The notes under the pieces are model-generated. The model worked only from the letters and a program-made list of their open reading frames with translations, was not told the DNA's origin and ran no database searches. 48,487 nucleotides of DNA from an uncultured Lachnospiraceae bacterium. GTDB taxonomy: Bacteria; Bacillota; Clostridia; Lachnospirales; Lachnospiraceae. The translations under genes and the position numbers were made by a program. Every line of letters begins with the position of its first letter. Position 1 is the stretch's first letter. Below are positions 7,832 to 12,854 of this stretch, in pieces. The DNA lies in assembly GCA_902801415.1 (NCBI GenBank), contig CADCIK010000020.1, positions 1-48,487 on the forward strand, read 5' to 3'.

Positions 7832-9070
7832 TTACTGGAATTTAACGCCTTCCTCACGAGCCTTGTTGTAGCGCTCTATGATCTTCAGGATCTTCTCTCT
7901 GGGATCGAGCAGGTCGCTGATGGAACTGTCGTGATTGAGGGTATCAATGATATAAGCAATATACTTGCTCATACCGCAGCACACATACCAGGGGCGCTCC
8001 TGCAGTTCGGGCTTCTGGTAAATGAGGTTGGTGGTGATGAGCTTATCGAAGATACGGATCTCTTTGCCGAGGTCATCGTCGTATCTGAGCTTATAGGCCT
8101 CGTCAAATTTCTCGATGCCGTCGGTGAACATGCCGAAGGTCTCGCAGATAAAGACTCTGCGCGCCTTGCGCTTTTTGAGCTGTCTGGCCACTTCGAGAAT
8201 GCTGTCGCCGGAGGAGAGCATGTCGTCGATCACGATCATGTCCTTGCCCTCTACGCTGGAGCCGAGGAACTCATGAGCGACAACGGGATTCTCACCGTTG
8301 ACAATGCGGGTATAATCGCGGCGCTTGTAGAACATGCCCATATCCAGACCGAGAACGTTCGCGTAGTAGACGGCGCGCTTCATGCCGCCCTCATCCGGGC
8401 TGATGACCAGCATATGCTTGTTATCGACCTGAAGGTCATCGACGCTGCGCAGAAGACCTTTGATGAATTGATAAGCCGGCTGTACGGTGTCAAAACCGTT
8501 GAGCGGGATCGCGTTCATGACGCGGGGATCATGCGCGTCGAAGGTGATGATATTGTCGACGCCCATGCGGACCAGCTCCTGCAGCGCGATCGCGCAGTCA
8601 AGAGATTCGCGTGCGGAGCGCTTGTGCTGGCGGCTCTCATAGAGATAGGGCATGATCACGGTGATCCTGCGGGCTTTACCGCCGATCGAAGCGATCGCTC
8701 TCTTGAGGTTCTGATAGTGGTCGTCAGGAGACATGTGGTTCTCAAAACCGAACATCTTATAGGTCTCGCTGTAGTTGACGACATCTGCGATCAGGTACAG
8801 GTCCATACCGCGGACGGACTCTGTCATTACGCCTTTTCCTTCACCTGTGCCGAAGCGGGGAAGGTCGCAGTTGACAATGTAGGAAGGACGCTTGTAGCCG
8901 ATATAGGCCAGAGAATCCTTGTGCTCGCTCTCGCGCTCATCTCTCCAGCGTGTAAGGTAATAGTTGATCTCAGAAGCCATTTCCTCGCATCCTTTGATCG
9001 GAACTATTCCAAGGGCACCTGCGGGCATTGTATCCAGATGTCTCTTATCATGCAGTTTGATCGGTTCCAT
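7832..9070 (-). CDS. prs: Ribose-phosphate pyrophosphokinase, long divergent form
   Basis: The enzyme makes PRPP from ribose 5-phosphate and ATP, feeding nucleotide, NAD and His/Trp synthesis. The product has 412 residues, compared with about 315 for the classical enzyme. Key sites remain: SARESLDCA, FDAHDPRVMNAIP (divalent-cation and catalytic region), SPDEGGMKRA, KRRDYT, and the PRPP loop VIDDMLSSGDSI. The extra length is an N-terminal extension of about 30 residues, insertions (for example after GFENHMSPDD) and a longer C-terminus. The allosteric sites of the classical type are hard to place, so regulation may differ. It is the last gene of a dnaD-dnaI-prs run, 35 bp behind the loader gene. 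Confidence 0.9.
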   Translation of the reverse strand: MEPIKLHDKRHLDTMPAGALGIVPIKGCEEMASEINYYLTRWRDERESEHKDSLAYIGYKRPSYIVNCDLPRFGTGEGKGVMTESVRGMDLYLIADVVNYSETYKMFGFENHMSPDDHYQNLKRAIASIGGKARRITVIMPYLYESRQHKRSARESLDCAIALQELVRMGVDNIITFDAHDPRVMNAIPLNGFDTVQPAYQFIKGLLRSVDDLQVDNKHMLVISPDEGGMKRAVYYANVLGLDMGMFYKRRDYTRIVNGENPVVAHEFLGSSVEGKDMIVIDDMLSSGDSILEVARQLKKRKARRVFICETFGMFTDGIEKFDEAYKLRYDDDLGKEIRIFDKLITTNLIYQKPELQERPWYVCCGMSKYIAYIIDTLNHDSSISDLLDPREKILKIIERYNKAREEGVKFQ

Positions 9071-9105: not shown

Positions 9106-10140
9106 TTATGAATTGAACAATGTCTGTGAGGACGGTTGTGTCCAGCTTGTGGATGTGGCTGCAGCGCTTCTCTGTCTGCGCTTGAGGACGCGAATGTCGC
9201 TTCCCGTCAGTTTATACAGCTCATAGTCGTTTGTGATCCTCGAAAAGACGCGGTCTGAATAGCGGGTCTGCATCTCCTTTAGAGAGAGATTGGTGGAGAT
9301 CACGGTCGACTTGCGGTTAAGGTGGCGCTCATTCAGACAGGTGAAGAGCTGTGCTGAAATGAACTGGTTGGTGAGTTCCGTTCCGAGATCGTCAATGATC
9401 AGAAGATCACAGGTATACAGATCTTCGGTGAAGCTGCGCAGTTCCTCCTTGACTCTTACGTCAAAGGAATACATGGAAAGCTTGTCGAAAAGCGCAGCCG
9501 CGCTGAAATACAGCACGGAGTGGCCGCTTTCGAGAACTTCCTTCGCGACGCAGATGGACAGAAACGACTTTCCGGTACCCACTGTACCATAAAGATAGAG
9601 GTTGCGGAAGACAGAATCGAATTCTGCTGCCATACGGCGGCATGCGCTGCTTGCGGTTCGAAAGCGCTTTAAGTCGTCGCCATGATAATAGCTTTCCGTA
9701 AGAATGTCAAAATTCTGCTCCCGGACAAGTTCCTGCAGATGGGACTGGTCGTAGAGGATCTCAATCTCCCTGCGCTTGAAACAGCGGCATTTCTGACCGC
9801 CGACAAAGCCCGTATCCTCGCAGTAAGGGCATTCGGGCTTCACGTTAAGATAATCCTCCGGATATCCGTTCGCGACCAGAAGAGCCTTTTTGCGGGCGGC
9901 GATCCTGCTGAGTTCAGGGCGCACAAAAGCGGGAGAAGCAGTCTTCCCGTCCTGCTTTTCTCCCAGTCTTTTATGAAGATAACCTACCGCGACTTCAGAG
10001 ACGCGTTCTGAGAGTTCCTTATAGGCAGGAATCTTTTCATATATCTCATCTCTGCGCTGCAGGCTCAGCTGGTGTCTGCGGCTTTGCTTCTGCATGTAAC
10101 CGCGCATGATGTCGTCATATTGCTCTCTGGTCAGTGACAC
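9106..10140 (-). CDS. DnaI/DnaC-type helicase loader ATPase
   Basis: This is a AAA+ ATPase that loads the replicative DnaB-type helicase at origins and restarted forks. The 344-residue protein has an N-terminal helical region and a zinc-ribbon-like patch CPYCEDTGF...CRC (about residues 101-119), as in DnaI. Walker A is GTVGTGKS (about 185) and Walker B is LLIIDDLGTE. Sensor-region residues STNLSLKEMQTRYSDRVFSR follow. It lies between a DnaD-domain gene and prs on the same strand, 29 bp behind the former. The last 25 residues are Ser/Thr/Gln-rich and look unconserved. Confidence 0.9.
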   Translation of the reverse strand: MSLTREQYDDIMRGYMQKQSRRHQLSLQRRDEIYEKIPAYKELSERVSEVAVGYLHKRLGEKQDGKTASPAFVRPELSRIAARKKALLVANGYPEDYLNVKPECPYCEDTGFVGGQKCRCFKRREIEILYDQSHLQELVREQNFDILTESYYHGDDLKRFRTASSACRRMAAEFDSVFRNLYLYGTVGTGKSFLSICVAKEVLESGHSVLYFSAAALFDKLSMYSFDVRVKEELRSFTEDLYTCDLLIIDDLGTELTNQFISAQLFTCLNERHLNRKSTVISTNLSLKEMQTRYSDRVFSRITNDYELYKLTGSDIRVLKRRQRSAAATSTSWTQPSSQTLFNS

Positions 10141-10169: not shown

Positions 10170-11096
10170 TCAGTTGCCGAGGATCTCTTTCTCCAGCTGA
10201 TCGAAGTCATACTGATTCTGCTCAAACTGATTGAAAGGATTGGCGGAGGGCTTGACACCCGAAATGCCTCTGCGGCCCTTGCCAAACCCGGAAGCGGCGC
10301 GTTCTGCCTGCTTGGGAGTGGTAATGCCGTGCTCCGCCCAGTTGACAGCGACTTTTTCTATGTAGCGGAAATCCTTCTTGCCTCTGTCTATGCAGTACTG
10401 AAGCAGATAATCGATCAGCGCGTCTGAAAAATGAAGCTGTTCTGATATATAGTATACGGACTCCACTTCACTCGGCGCAAGGGGTTTGCCGATATACTGT
10501 TCGATCACGAACAAAAGCTGGGCGCGTTTGGCGCTGCTGCGGAAAGCTTCGACAGAAGCGGCGTCGGGATGCCTTGCGGAAACCTTAGGAGAGGCCAAAG
10601 AAGTGCTCTCCCGCTCAACCAAGGGAGAAGCGGCTGGAGCCGTTTCCTTAGCAGCAGTGTGCTGCGAAGGAATAGCCATGGGCTGAAGCCTGGGCATAGC
10701 GGGCATCGAAGACGCCGGATCCGCATAGGAGGACTGCATTGCAGCCGCACTGCCTGCAGGCTGCTGCGCCTCTTCCCGTCTGACGGCCGGATAGGCCGGA
10801 GTATCAACACGGGGAGTGAGCATGTGCAGGGACAGGAGTTCTCCGCTGTTTCCGTATTCAAACGCGATCAGACCGCGGCTCTCCCAATAGCGGAGAGAGC
10901 GCAGTACTTCTTTCTCTGTATGATTGAACTGGTCCGCCATGTCGCTGATGCTGGTAGGCCTTCCGGCGTTCATCATGCGAAGAAGGTAGAGATATACCTT
11001 GAGCTGTGCGTCATTGGCGTCCTTCATGTATTGATCGATGAATAAGTTGGAGATCAGAGTCGATCCCCTGTCGTTTTCGCTGTAGACCGTGAACAC
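10170..11096 (-). CDS. DnaD-domain replication initiation protein
   Basis: DnaD-family proteins act with the helicase loader in replication initiation and restart. I place the start at GTG 11096 (308 residues). It follows a GGGAGG site and begins MFTVYSENDRGSTLISNLFI, the usual DnaD N-terminus; the longer upstream frame is Cys/Arg-rich and unconserved. The N-terminal winged-helix domain is about residues 1-95. A low-complexity Ala/Pro/Ser linker follows (about 100-190). The C-terminal DnaD/DnaB_2 domain (about 205-275) contains the YIEKVAVNW signature. Its promoter is preceded by a cluster of DnaA-box-like sites. Confidence 0.88.
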   Translation of the reverse strand: MFTVYSENDRGSTLISNLFIDQYMKDANDAQLKVYLYLLRMMNAGRPTSISDMADQFNHTEKEVLRSLRYWESRGLIAFEYGNSGELLSLHMLTPRVDTPAYPAVRREEAQQPAGSAAAMQSSYADPASSMPAMPRLQPMAIPSQHTAAKETAPAASPLVERESTSLASPKVSARHPDAASVEAFRSSAKRAQLLFVIEQYIGKPLAPSEVESVYYISEQLHFSDALIDYLLQYCIDRGKKDFRYIEKVAVNWAEHGITTPKQAERAASGFGKGRRGISGVKPSANPFNQFEQNQYDFDQLEKEILGN

Positions 11097-11246
11097 TTCA
11101 CGAACCTCCCGTTTCCCCCGGCAGAAAGCACAGTCTGCTCCTGTATTTTGAAGCAGACAACAGCTCTGCGCTGTAATCCGTATATCGTAAGACCGCCGCA
11201 GGCCGATCCGGCCCATGGCGATAGTATGGCAAATTTTGATAAATGC

Positions 11247-11255
11247 AGTATAACA
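11247..11255 (-). promoter_or_regulatory. Extended -10 promoter of the dnaD-dnaI-prs unit
   Basis: On the minus strand TGTTATACT forms an extended -10 element (TATACT at 11247-11252). A TTGACT lies only 13 bp upstream, too close for a standard -35. The site sits about 150 bp before the DnaD start codon and directly downstream of the DnaA-box cluster. Confidence 0.5.
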
Positions 11256-11283
11256 CAGGCATGAAAGTCAAGAAATGGTCATA

Positions 11284-11460
11284 TTATCCATAAAATTTCC
11301 GGCGCTCCCGAATGACCGGTCTGCGGGCAGGATTGTGGATAATGTGGACAACATGGAAACATCTCCTGAACACCCTTTATTAAGGACTATTCAGGAGATG
11401 AGGATATCCACATTCAGGATCACCGCATTTTGTGGGGATGATGTGGAAAAGTGCGGATAA
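11284..11460. promoter_or_regulatory. Cluster of DnaA-box-like sites upstream of dnaD
   Basis: Six 9-mers match TTATCCACA perfectly or with one mismatch: 11284-11292 (+, TTATCCATA), 11334-11342 (-, perfect), 11343-11351 (-, TTGTCCACA), 11404-11412 (+, ATATCCACA), 11442-11450 (-, TTTTCCACA) and 11452-11460 (-, TTATCCGCA). Two pairs are abutting or nearly so. A perfect 10-bp inverted repeat (CATCTCCTGA, 11360-11369, and TCAGGAGATG, 11391-11400) lies in the middle. The cluster lies between the murC stop and the dnaD promoter. Confidence 0.8.
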
Positions 11461-11465
11461 GAAGG

Positions 11466-12854
11466 TCAGGAAACCAGATCTGCGCCGACTTCATTGATGT
11501 TTCCGGCGCCCATGGTTATCACCAAATCACCCGATTGGCAATTTTGCAGAAGATAATTTTCAATTTCTTCGAAAGTATCCAGGCACAGGCAGGGATGGCC
11601 CAGCGCTTCGATCTTTTCGGCCAGTGTATGGGAGCTGATCCCGAGAGTGTCGGTCTCTCTGGCCGGGTAGATCTTGGCCAGGATGATGTGATCGGCCAGC
11701 GTGAGCGCCTTCGCGAAATCATCCATAAGTGACTTGGTCCTTGTGTAAGTGTGGGACTGGAACACGCAGTAAAGCTCTTTGTGCGGATAGTTGGACGCAG
11801 TCCGGAGTGTCGCCTCGATCTCTGTAGGATGATGCGCGTAGTCATCAATGACTGTAAAGCCGTTTCTCGTGCCGAGCACCTGGAAGCGTCTCTCTGTTCC
11901 TGTGTATTTCTTCAGCGCGGCGGCTGCGTCGTCACGGGAAATGCCGAGACGGTCCGCGGCAGCGACGGCCGCCATGGAGTTGAACACGTTGTGCTCGCCG
12001 GGAACACTGAGGGAGATCTCCTGCCTTTTCACGCTGCCGTCACTCTCGCGGGAGCAGAGCGTATAGGTGGGATAGGCCAGCTTGTTGTAGCGGATATCCT
12101 CAGGCCAGTAATCGGCGCTGCTGTCGGGACCGTAGAGAATGACGTCGCACGAAAGACCTTCCGTGATCTCGTTATAATCGGGGATCTGCGCGTTGATGAT
12201 CAGCGCGCCGTCCTCCGGGATGAGCTGCGCAAACTTCCTGAAGGAGCGGCGGATATCTGCAAGGTCCTTGAAGAAGTCAAGATGATCCTCATCGATATCC
12301 AGGATGATGCCGATTCCGGGGAACATGTCGAGGAAACTGTTGGTGTACTCACAGGCTTCCGCGGCAAAATAGGAACTGTTTCCGATCCTTACGTTTCCGC
12401 CGATGCTGTCCAGGATCCCGCCGATCGAGAGTGTCGGATCTGTGCCTGCTTCCATGAGGATCTCGGAGATCATGGAAGTGGTGGTCGTCTTGCCGTGTGT
12501 GCCGCTGATCGCGACGGGATCTTTATAACCGCGCATGATCTGTCCCAGCAGAACGGATCTTGTTATGTGCGGAATATCGTTTTCCATGACAGCAATATAT
12601 TCGGGATTGTCGGGGCGGATCGCCGCAGTGAACACTACCAGATCGATGTCCGGCGTGATATTCTCCTTCTTCTGTCCGATGATGACGTGAATGCCGTCTG
12701 CGGCAAGAGCATCCGTGAGCGCGCTCTGCGCCCTGTCCGAACCGGAGACCTGAAAGCCTCTGCTCTTAAGTATTCTTGCCAGACCGCTCATGGAAATCCC
12801 GCCGATCCCCGAAAAATAGACGTGGATCGGGGTGTTGAAGTCGAGCTGAATCAT
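11466..12854 (-). CDS. murC: UDP-N-acetylmuramate--L-alanine ligase
   Basis: MurC adds L-Ala to UDP-MurNAc with ATP hydrolysis, the first amino-acid step of peptidoglycan precursor synthesis in the cytosol. The 462-residue protein has the N-terminal nucleotide fold with FSGIGGISMSGLA, the Mur-ligase P-loop GTHGKTTTTSM (118-128), the central motif DEDHLDFF, and the C-terminal domain with DDYAHHPTEI and VFQSHTYTRTKSL. The start at 12854 follows AGGAGG. It lies upstream of the DnaA-box region and reads towards it. Confidence 0.97.
   Translation of the reverse strand: MIQLDFNTPIHVYFSGIGGISMSGLARILKSRGFQVSGSDRAQSALTDALAADGIHVIIGQKKENITPDIDLVVFTAAIRPDNPEYIAVMENDIPHITRSVLLGQIMRGYKDPVAISGTHGKTTTTSMISEILMEAGTDPTLSIGGILDSIGGNVRIGNSSYFAAEACEYTNSFLDMFPGIGIILDIDEDHLDFFKDLADIRRSFRKFAQLIPEDGALIINAQIPDYNEITEGLSCDVILYGPDSSADYWPEDIRYNKLAYPTYTLCSRESDGSVKRQEISLSVPGEHNVFNSMAAVAAADRLGISRDDAAAALKKYTGTERRFQVLGTRNGFTVIDDYAHHPTEIEATLRTASNYPHKELYCVFQSHTYTRTKSLMDDFAKALTLADHIILAKIYPARETDTLGISSHTLAEKIEALGHPCLCLDTFEEIENYLLQNCQSGDLVITMGAGNINEVGADLVS

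Follow-up and report, generated by a model that had tools for sequence, protein, structure and literature searches.

Why should a dense group of DnaA boxes lie between a gene for cell-wall synthesis and the genes for helicase loading, and do these boxes serve to control the latter? The locus is situated on contig C20 of a 2.39-Mb draft genome (86% complete, 116 contigs), and this contig is the window, by which we mean the whole stretch of 48,487 nucleotides analysed here; the best named matches of the window's DnaD profile are from Lachnospiraceae. On the minus strand murC is followed by a gap of about 370 bp and then by dnaD, dnaI and prs. The upstream neighbour murC (11466..12854, minus strand) was recognized by TIGR01082 and by Pfam Mur ligase domains, and the box cluster begins right after its stop codon. 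The dnaD-like primosome gene (10170..11096, minus strand) encodes a DnaD-domain protein (TIGR01446, PF07261), and from the sequence we read its start as the GTG at 11096, preceded by GGGAGG. Behind it lies a dnaI/dnaC-like helicase loader (9106..10140, minus strand), a DnaI/DnaC-like AAA+ protein that matches NF005304 and, more weakly and under that profile's cut-off, DnaI NF006505. The third gene of the presumed operon is prs, for PRPP synthetase (7832..9070, minus strand; NF005299). The initial annotation of this DNA had counted prs as part of the operon, and 70 of 80 named loci indeed have prs behind dnaI in the same orientation, so the link to PRPP is structurally sound; in the other ten, four are without prs with more than 1.5 kb in view, four are too short and two have no dnaI in sight. 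The DnaD of the window (310 residues as aligned) is shorter than that of 18 of the 19 aligned relatives, and it matches the profile to about position 272 only and again over a short C-terminal tail. A search of viral contigs with the DnaD protein gave no relative, and an Rfam search of the window gave nothing at gathering thresholds.

Six sites with at most one mismatch to the DnaA box, one of them exact, had been described within 177 bp and in both orientations, and our motif scan returned exactly these six, at 11284+, 11334-, 11343-, 11404+, 11442- and 11452-. Such a density is far from what base composition gives: dinucleotide shuffles of the murC-dnaD gap (11103-11465) contain on average 0.11 sites, with a maximum of 3 in 5,000 shuffles. 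The whole window holds 16 sites with at most one mismatch versus 7.38 expected, a number reached in none of 100 shuffles; six of the 16 belong to the cluster, and in the rest of the window no stretch of the length of the gap has more than one. DnaA-box clusters have been defined, in the portion of the source accessible to us, as at least three boxes with a mean spacing below 100 bp (PMC7561715), and the present group, with at least three boxes so spaced and away from dnaA/oriC, is a DnaA-box cluster outside oriC.

The six sites are not equally maintained among the eight closest sisters, which were chosen by us and to which alone the following counts apply. Toward dnaD, the site next to murC, TTATCCGCA (11452..11460, minus strand, one mismatch), was found in none of the eight. 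The distal box TTTTCCACA (11442..11450, minus strand) occupies a conserved slot in all eight, and the convergent box ATATCCACA (11404..11412, plus strand), spaced 38 nt from the distal one, occupies its slot in six. Both proximal tandem boxes, TTGTCCACA (11343..11351, minus strand) and the exact TTATCCACA (11334..11342, minus strand), the latter in register with the -10 element, are present in all eight sisters, and the last site, TTATCCATA (11284..11292, plus strand), again in none. Four of the six window sites therefore occupy conserved positions and form the core, since the sites at 11452 and 11284 are absent from all the sisters and may be chance occurrences. When slots were scored from the called -10 over 24 loci of the genus, the counts were 6 for 11442, 4 for 11404, 9 for 11343, 12 for 11334 and 0 for both 11452 and 11284; the low values are due to spacing and promoter calls, which vary across the wider genus.

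Beyond the genus, a motif survey upstream of dnaD bore out the expectation that the sites are conserved in relatives with the same gene order. A dnaD search through 200 family genomes, made up of the window's own and a single genome per genus for 199 others, gave matches in 199, and we examined 69 of the 199 other genera, 29 among the best DnaD matches and 40 picked from the lower-ranked listed ones. At least three boxes were found in the murC-dnaD gap in 56 of these genera (3-10 per gap) and at least two in 63, while six genera have one or none; the two genera without any box have gaps of 26 and 73 bp. As 13 of the 69 have fewer than three boxes, the full box set is not essential. Taken over 157 distinct upstream regions from the genus, family, order and named sets (169 located minus duplicates and cut ones, mutually non-independent), at least three boxes occur in 144, with a mean of 4.64 versus 0.12 in shuffles. 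For the named loci this count also covered the last 60 bp of murC; in a stricter repeat without those bases, the gap alone has 2-8 boxes per 180 bp in the 71 named loci with murC located, at least three of them in 68, and the remainder of each locus has 0-2. A pattern of tandem boxes, run through 30 whole genomes, fell into the murC-dnaD gap in 45 of its 79 matches (counted by us from the table, with overlapping triplets counted twice), and a reversed control pattern gave 3 matches. A one-mismatch box, TGTTGATAA, also recurs in many relatives within the murC reading frame, about 52 bp before the end of the gene; the coding stretch around it is conserved, and this box was excluded from the 69-genus and the strict 71-locus gap counts.

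The distribution of the cluster reaches the order and follows the gap itself. Outside the family at least three gap boxes were found in 20 of 24 loci of the order and in 6 of 20 further regions, and among 20 other families of the order looked at, ten have the cluster in at least one member and ten in none. Of the 14 further regions without a cluster, seven have no murC in sight beside dnaD (one of them, L289, ends early at a contig end), four have a gap below 40 bp, L287 and L292 have two boxes each, and in L288 dnaD was not located. No gap boxes were present in any of the 11 regions in which the gap is below 40 bp or no murC was found beside dnaD. Outside the order, at most one box was found in the 600 bp upstream of dnaD at 22 loci, the best matches among 196 genomes (for one of them only 170 bp upstream are in view), and in all 19 loci looked at, from 246 genomes, there was no dnaD within up to 1.5 kb of murC. 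Across much of Lachnospirales the helicase-loader operon has a real and widely conserved array of what are, by their sequence, DnaA boxes.

An extended -10 promoter had been proposed just below the cluster. The element, TGTTATACT (11247..11255, minus strand), was found in the sequence and is conserved in relatives; no -35 was paired with it in a sigma-70 scan, which returned no -35/-10 pair versus 1.1 expected. In the common layout, going from murC toward dnaD, the murC stop is followed by two boxes in tandem (9-bp period) and, about 38 bp beyond them, by a convergent box; after a spacer come two or three further boxes in tandem, then a TTTGaCTATTTC element, the extended -10 and dnaD. The distance from the -10 to the start of dnaD ranges across genera from 32 to 153 bp. 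The register of the boxes was scored in three slots of 6 bp, with starts at -97, -88 and -79 from the -10, which were defined after viewing 29 of the 69 genera. A strong -10 is present in 38 of the 40 genera not used for this definition, and 20 of those have a box in a slot, while permuted promoter offsets gave a mean of 10.0 and a largest value of 18 in 2,000 permutations. With both sets of genera together the count is 40 of 65 versus 19.8 permuted (largest 30), and the other 25 fall outside the three slots. The window boxes, at -96 and -87 relative to the -10, fit. The proximal tandem boxes therefore tend to keep register with the extended -10 in part of the genera, about half to two thirds of them. 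Between the boxes and the -10 the window has TGACCATTTC (11272..11281, minus strand), a variant of the conserved element, which in its TTTGaCTATTTC form is clearest in the named set. In the form TGACTATTTC, with at most one mismatch, this element was observed in 38 of the 157 promoters versus 86 times elsewhere in 1.8 million strand-bases, and the window copy differs from it by one change.

The boxes had also been said to surround a perfect inverted repeat. The repeat exists, with arms at 11360-11379 and 11381-11400 that are 80% complementary and have an 11-bp perfect outer part, and an RNA fold of 11340-11410 reaches -28.5 kcal/mol (z -4.8). As an RNA hairpin (11360..11400, minus strand) it has a stem that covaries across eight genus sequences and is formed by the fold in seven of them; the T tail behind it is short, and a terminator scan left it unlisted, giving 11312-11298 and 11158-11133 on the minus strand instead. 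We propose that this hairpin may end murC in the window's genus, and since it is separate and covarying, the inverted repeat is most likely an RNA element and not a DnaA feature.

A different hairpin is found in the relatives, in which the distal box itself takes part. In the RNA fold it pairs with TGTGGA in 94 of 155 loci that have a distal box, with a T-rich tail in 45, and the spacing between box and TGTGGA is 37-40 nt in 92 of 102 loci with the motif. Box and TGTGGA were the criteria of selection, and therefore their own invariance is not evidence. For hairpins from outside the window's genus, 82 in number, pairing of the first four positions above the boxes is kept in 72, 65, 65 and 65, through several types of base pair, and the 12 bases that follow the stem contain a mean of 7.8 T. 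Many relatives outside the window's genus possess a murC intrinsic terminator with a DnaA box as the base of its stem. In 20 loci of the window's genus, a set that includes six named or duplicate loci assigned by eye, the same pairs are formed in 11, 8, 0 and 8 cases and the T content goes down to 3.5, while the boxes are kept: the box-based hairpin has decayed there and the boxes remain.

The presence of the boxes could thus be attributed to something other than control of the genes behind them. If the murC terminator alone explained them, the inverted boxes would be no more than the arms of its stem, as the frequent pairing of the distal box and the T-rich tails behind it would suggest. We give this very little credence: outside the window's genus there is variation and covariation just above the boxes, within that genus pairing and T tail are largely lost and the boxes stay, and the proximal tandem boxes are left unaccounted for. 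For the cluster as a whole, boxes that outlast the hairpin contradict it. Chance, or shared ancestry without function, is more improbable still. It would agree with two of the six window sites being without conservation and with the 13 genera that have fewer than three boxes, but the boxes persist in 56 of 69 genera between diverged loops and spacers, and both the gap shuffles and the genus survey contradict it. Equally hard to believe is that the cluster is a replication origin or a second origin, a question that the initial annotation had raised and for which dense tandem boxes adjoining helicase-loader genes could speak. The gene dnaA is found elsewhere, on contig C8, surrounded by six exact boxes, and GC skew in the window is positive in 20 of 20 bins (in one of them only 0.001), that is, without a switch; in G032, a relative assembled as a single contig, the switch in skew is located at dnaA, and dnaD is about 239 kb away. 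We accordingly rejected the cluster as oriC, as it is not linked to dnaA/dnaN and shows no skew switch in the window. A DnaA-trio of at least four units between the boxes and the -10 was found in none of the 157 regions, in a search whose positive control saw only two of five dnaA loci.

The main rival is titration, in which the cluster would mainly buffer free DnaA and its position before dnaD would be incidental to transcription. Three to ten boxes per gap are many for a simple operator, and no more than about 0.52 Mb separates dnaD from dnaA in eight of nine single-contig genomes (the distances are about 46, 234, 239, 250, 279, 287, 471, 519 and, in G500, 1,260 kb; a tenth genome, G539, was dropped as it gave no dnaA match). 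DnaA-box clusters of B. subtilis act as DnaA sinks, according to the accessible passages of two studies (PMC5295017, PMC11019786). In its pure form, titration predicts no promoter register, yet a register is seen, and it accounts neither for the tie of the boxes to the murC-dnaD gap nor for their absence where the gap is missing. We therefore consider it unlikely as the main role, about as one would a minority opinion, while as a side effect it may coexist with an operator.

Control of the helicase-loader operon dnaD-dnaI-prs by a DnaA operator, with some titration, is on the evidence of sequence comparison the probable explanation. Conservation with the same gene order, together with the promoter register kept in many genera, makes it the best reading, and from these we infer that DnaA would bind the array and regulate the operon. 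The site closest to the promoter, 11284, is not conserved in the sisters, and repression from it is for that reason not supported. DnaA would bind the distal boxes right after murC, the convergent box about 38 bp on and the tandem run of two or three boxes, which starts 75-96 bp upstream of the extended -10, and DnaA bound at this array would set transcription of dnaD-dnaI-prs. As to the sign of regulation, activation or a DnaA-bridged loop seems to us somewhat more likely than steric repression; this is a judgement that leans only weakly to one side, and it follows from the position of the conserved boxes, which precede the expected transcription start by about 85-110 bp and stay clear of the promoter core.

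The genome's own DnaA has the DNA-binding domain PF08299. YabA, which is a DnaA regulator of B. subtilis, scored over the cut-off in none of the 41 genomes searched, the window's own included (there was one weak match, and the B. subtilis control was positive). DnaD of B. subtilis inhibits cooperative DnaA binding, as stated in the accessible part of the source (PMC5295017), and the circuit would therefore be a feedback, in which the amount of free DnaA would decide how much loader is made, and the loader would in turn restrain DnaA. By this analogy, and with YabA at 0 of 41, a feedback between DnaA and DnaD is plausible. A wider model is possible, though we would hold it as a whole to be rather doubtful: throughout a large share of Lachnospirales, for which the search gave no YabA, DnaA would set dnaD-dnaI-prs through the promoter-phased array and DnaD would restrain DnaA, giving a closed circuit that couples initiation timing with the supply of loader and PRPP, and in many members the array would double as the murC terminator, so that a single sequence would be an operator in the DNA and, in the RNA, a stem that keeps cell-wall genes apart from replication genes. 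If true, DnaA control of the helicase-loader operon through a conserved operator would be a concrete control point in a large, mostly gut bacterial group, and a protein-binding site and an RNA terminator would have been written in the same bases and later separated.

To our knowledge, no promoter register is known for datA and DARS of E. coli. These are likewise non-coding DnaA-box loci, which modulate free or active DnaA (PMC12371093, accessible part). Nearer to the present cluster are the sda, ywlC, trmE-noc, ywcI-sacT and yydA regions of B. subtilis, which in the accessible text of the source also have several boxes outside oriC near promoters; there DnaA activates sda and appears to repress other targets (PMC4447404). 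None of the eight high-affinity regions named in that text is at dnaD, dnaB or dnaI (PMC4447404), whereas here the helicase-loader operon is concerned, in a layout that recurs across genera. As dnaB-dnaI and dnaD are missing from those regions, the best-studied relative, so far as this source was available, offers no direct precedent. Elsewhere, replication genes regulated by DnaA include dnaA, dnaN and nrdAB (RNR) and, in Caulobacter, the dnaB helicase, and the likeness lies in DnaA as a regulator of replication supply; the Caulobacter target is the helicase and not its loader, the bacteria are of other phyla, and the accessible excerpt does not mention a box-in-terminator layout (PMC8203912). 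The bipartite oriC of C. difficile has the same box consensus and several boxes together, but it flanks dnaA and has a DnaA-trio (PMC7561715, as far as its text was accessible), while the murC-dnaD cluster is not at dnaA. C. difficile, which belongs to the same class as the host, lacks homologues of several known DnaA regulators, and in 2020 it was unknown how DnaA activity is regulated there, according to the same accessible text (PMC7561715). A search of titles and abstract openings found no literature on DnaA boxes at dnaD/dnaI or in Lachnospiraceae; most subscription papers, the primary B. subtilis regulon papers among them, lay outside this search. The element is of a known kind, and its target and layout did not turn up in the searchable literature.

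During the comparison of relatives a second recurring module was observed away from both dnaD and dnaA. It consists of a tandem pair and, 52-54 bp upstream of the pair on its strand, a single box, and was present in 16 of the 29 tandem loci checked (L064, L068, L071-L075, L080, L083, L084, L086, L087, L236, L239/L249, which are one site, and L258), with the tandem at position 1501 in most. In the window's own genome the tandem pattern found no second module. In some loci it adjoins hpf or secA, an NlpC/P60 gene, or DUF1858 and mecA. The skew of G032 has no switch at the second module, which is therefore not an origin in G032. Two further motifs stand behind the tandem, no more than about 130 nt from it: a palindrome GAACN4GT, which we take to be LexA-like, in 9 of 15 loci, and either TGTCGAA or its complement, presumably resembling a Spo0A box, in 6 of 15.
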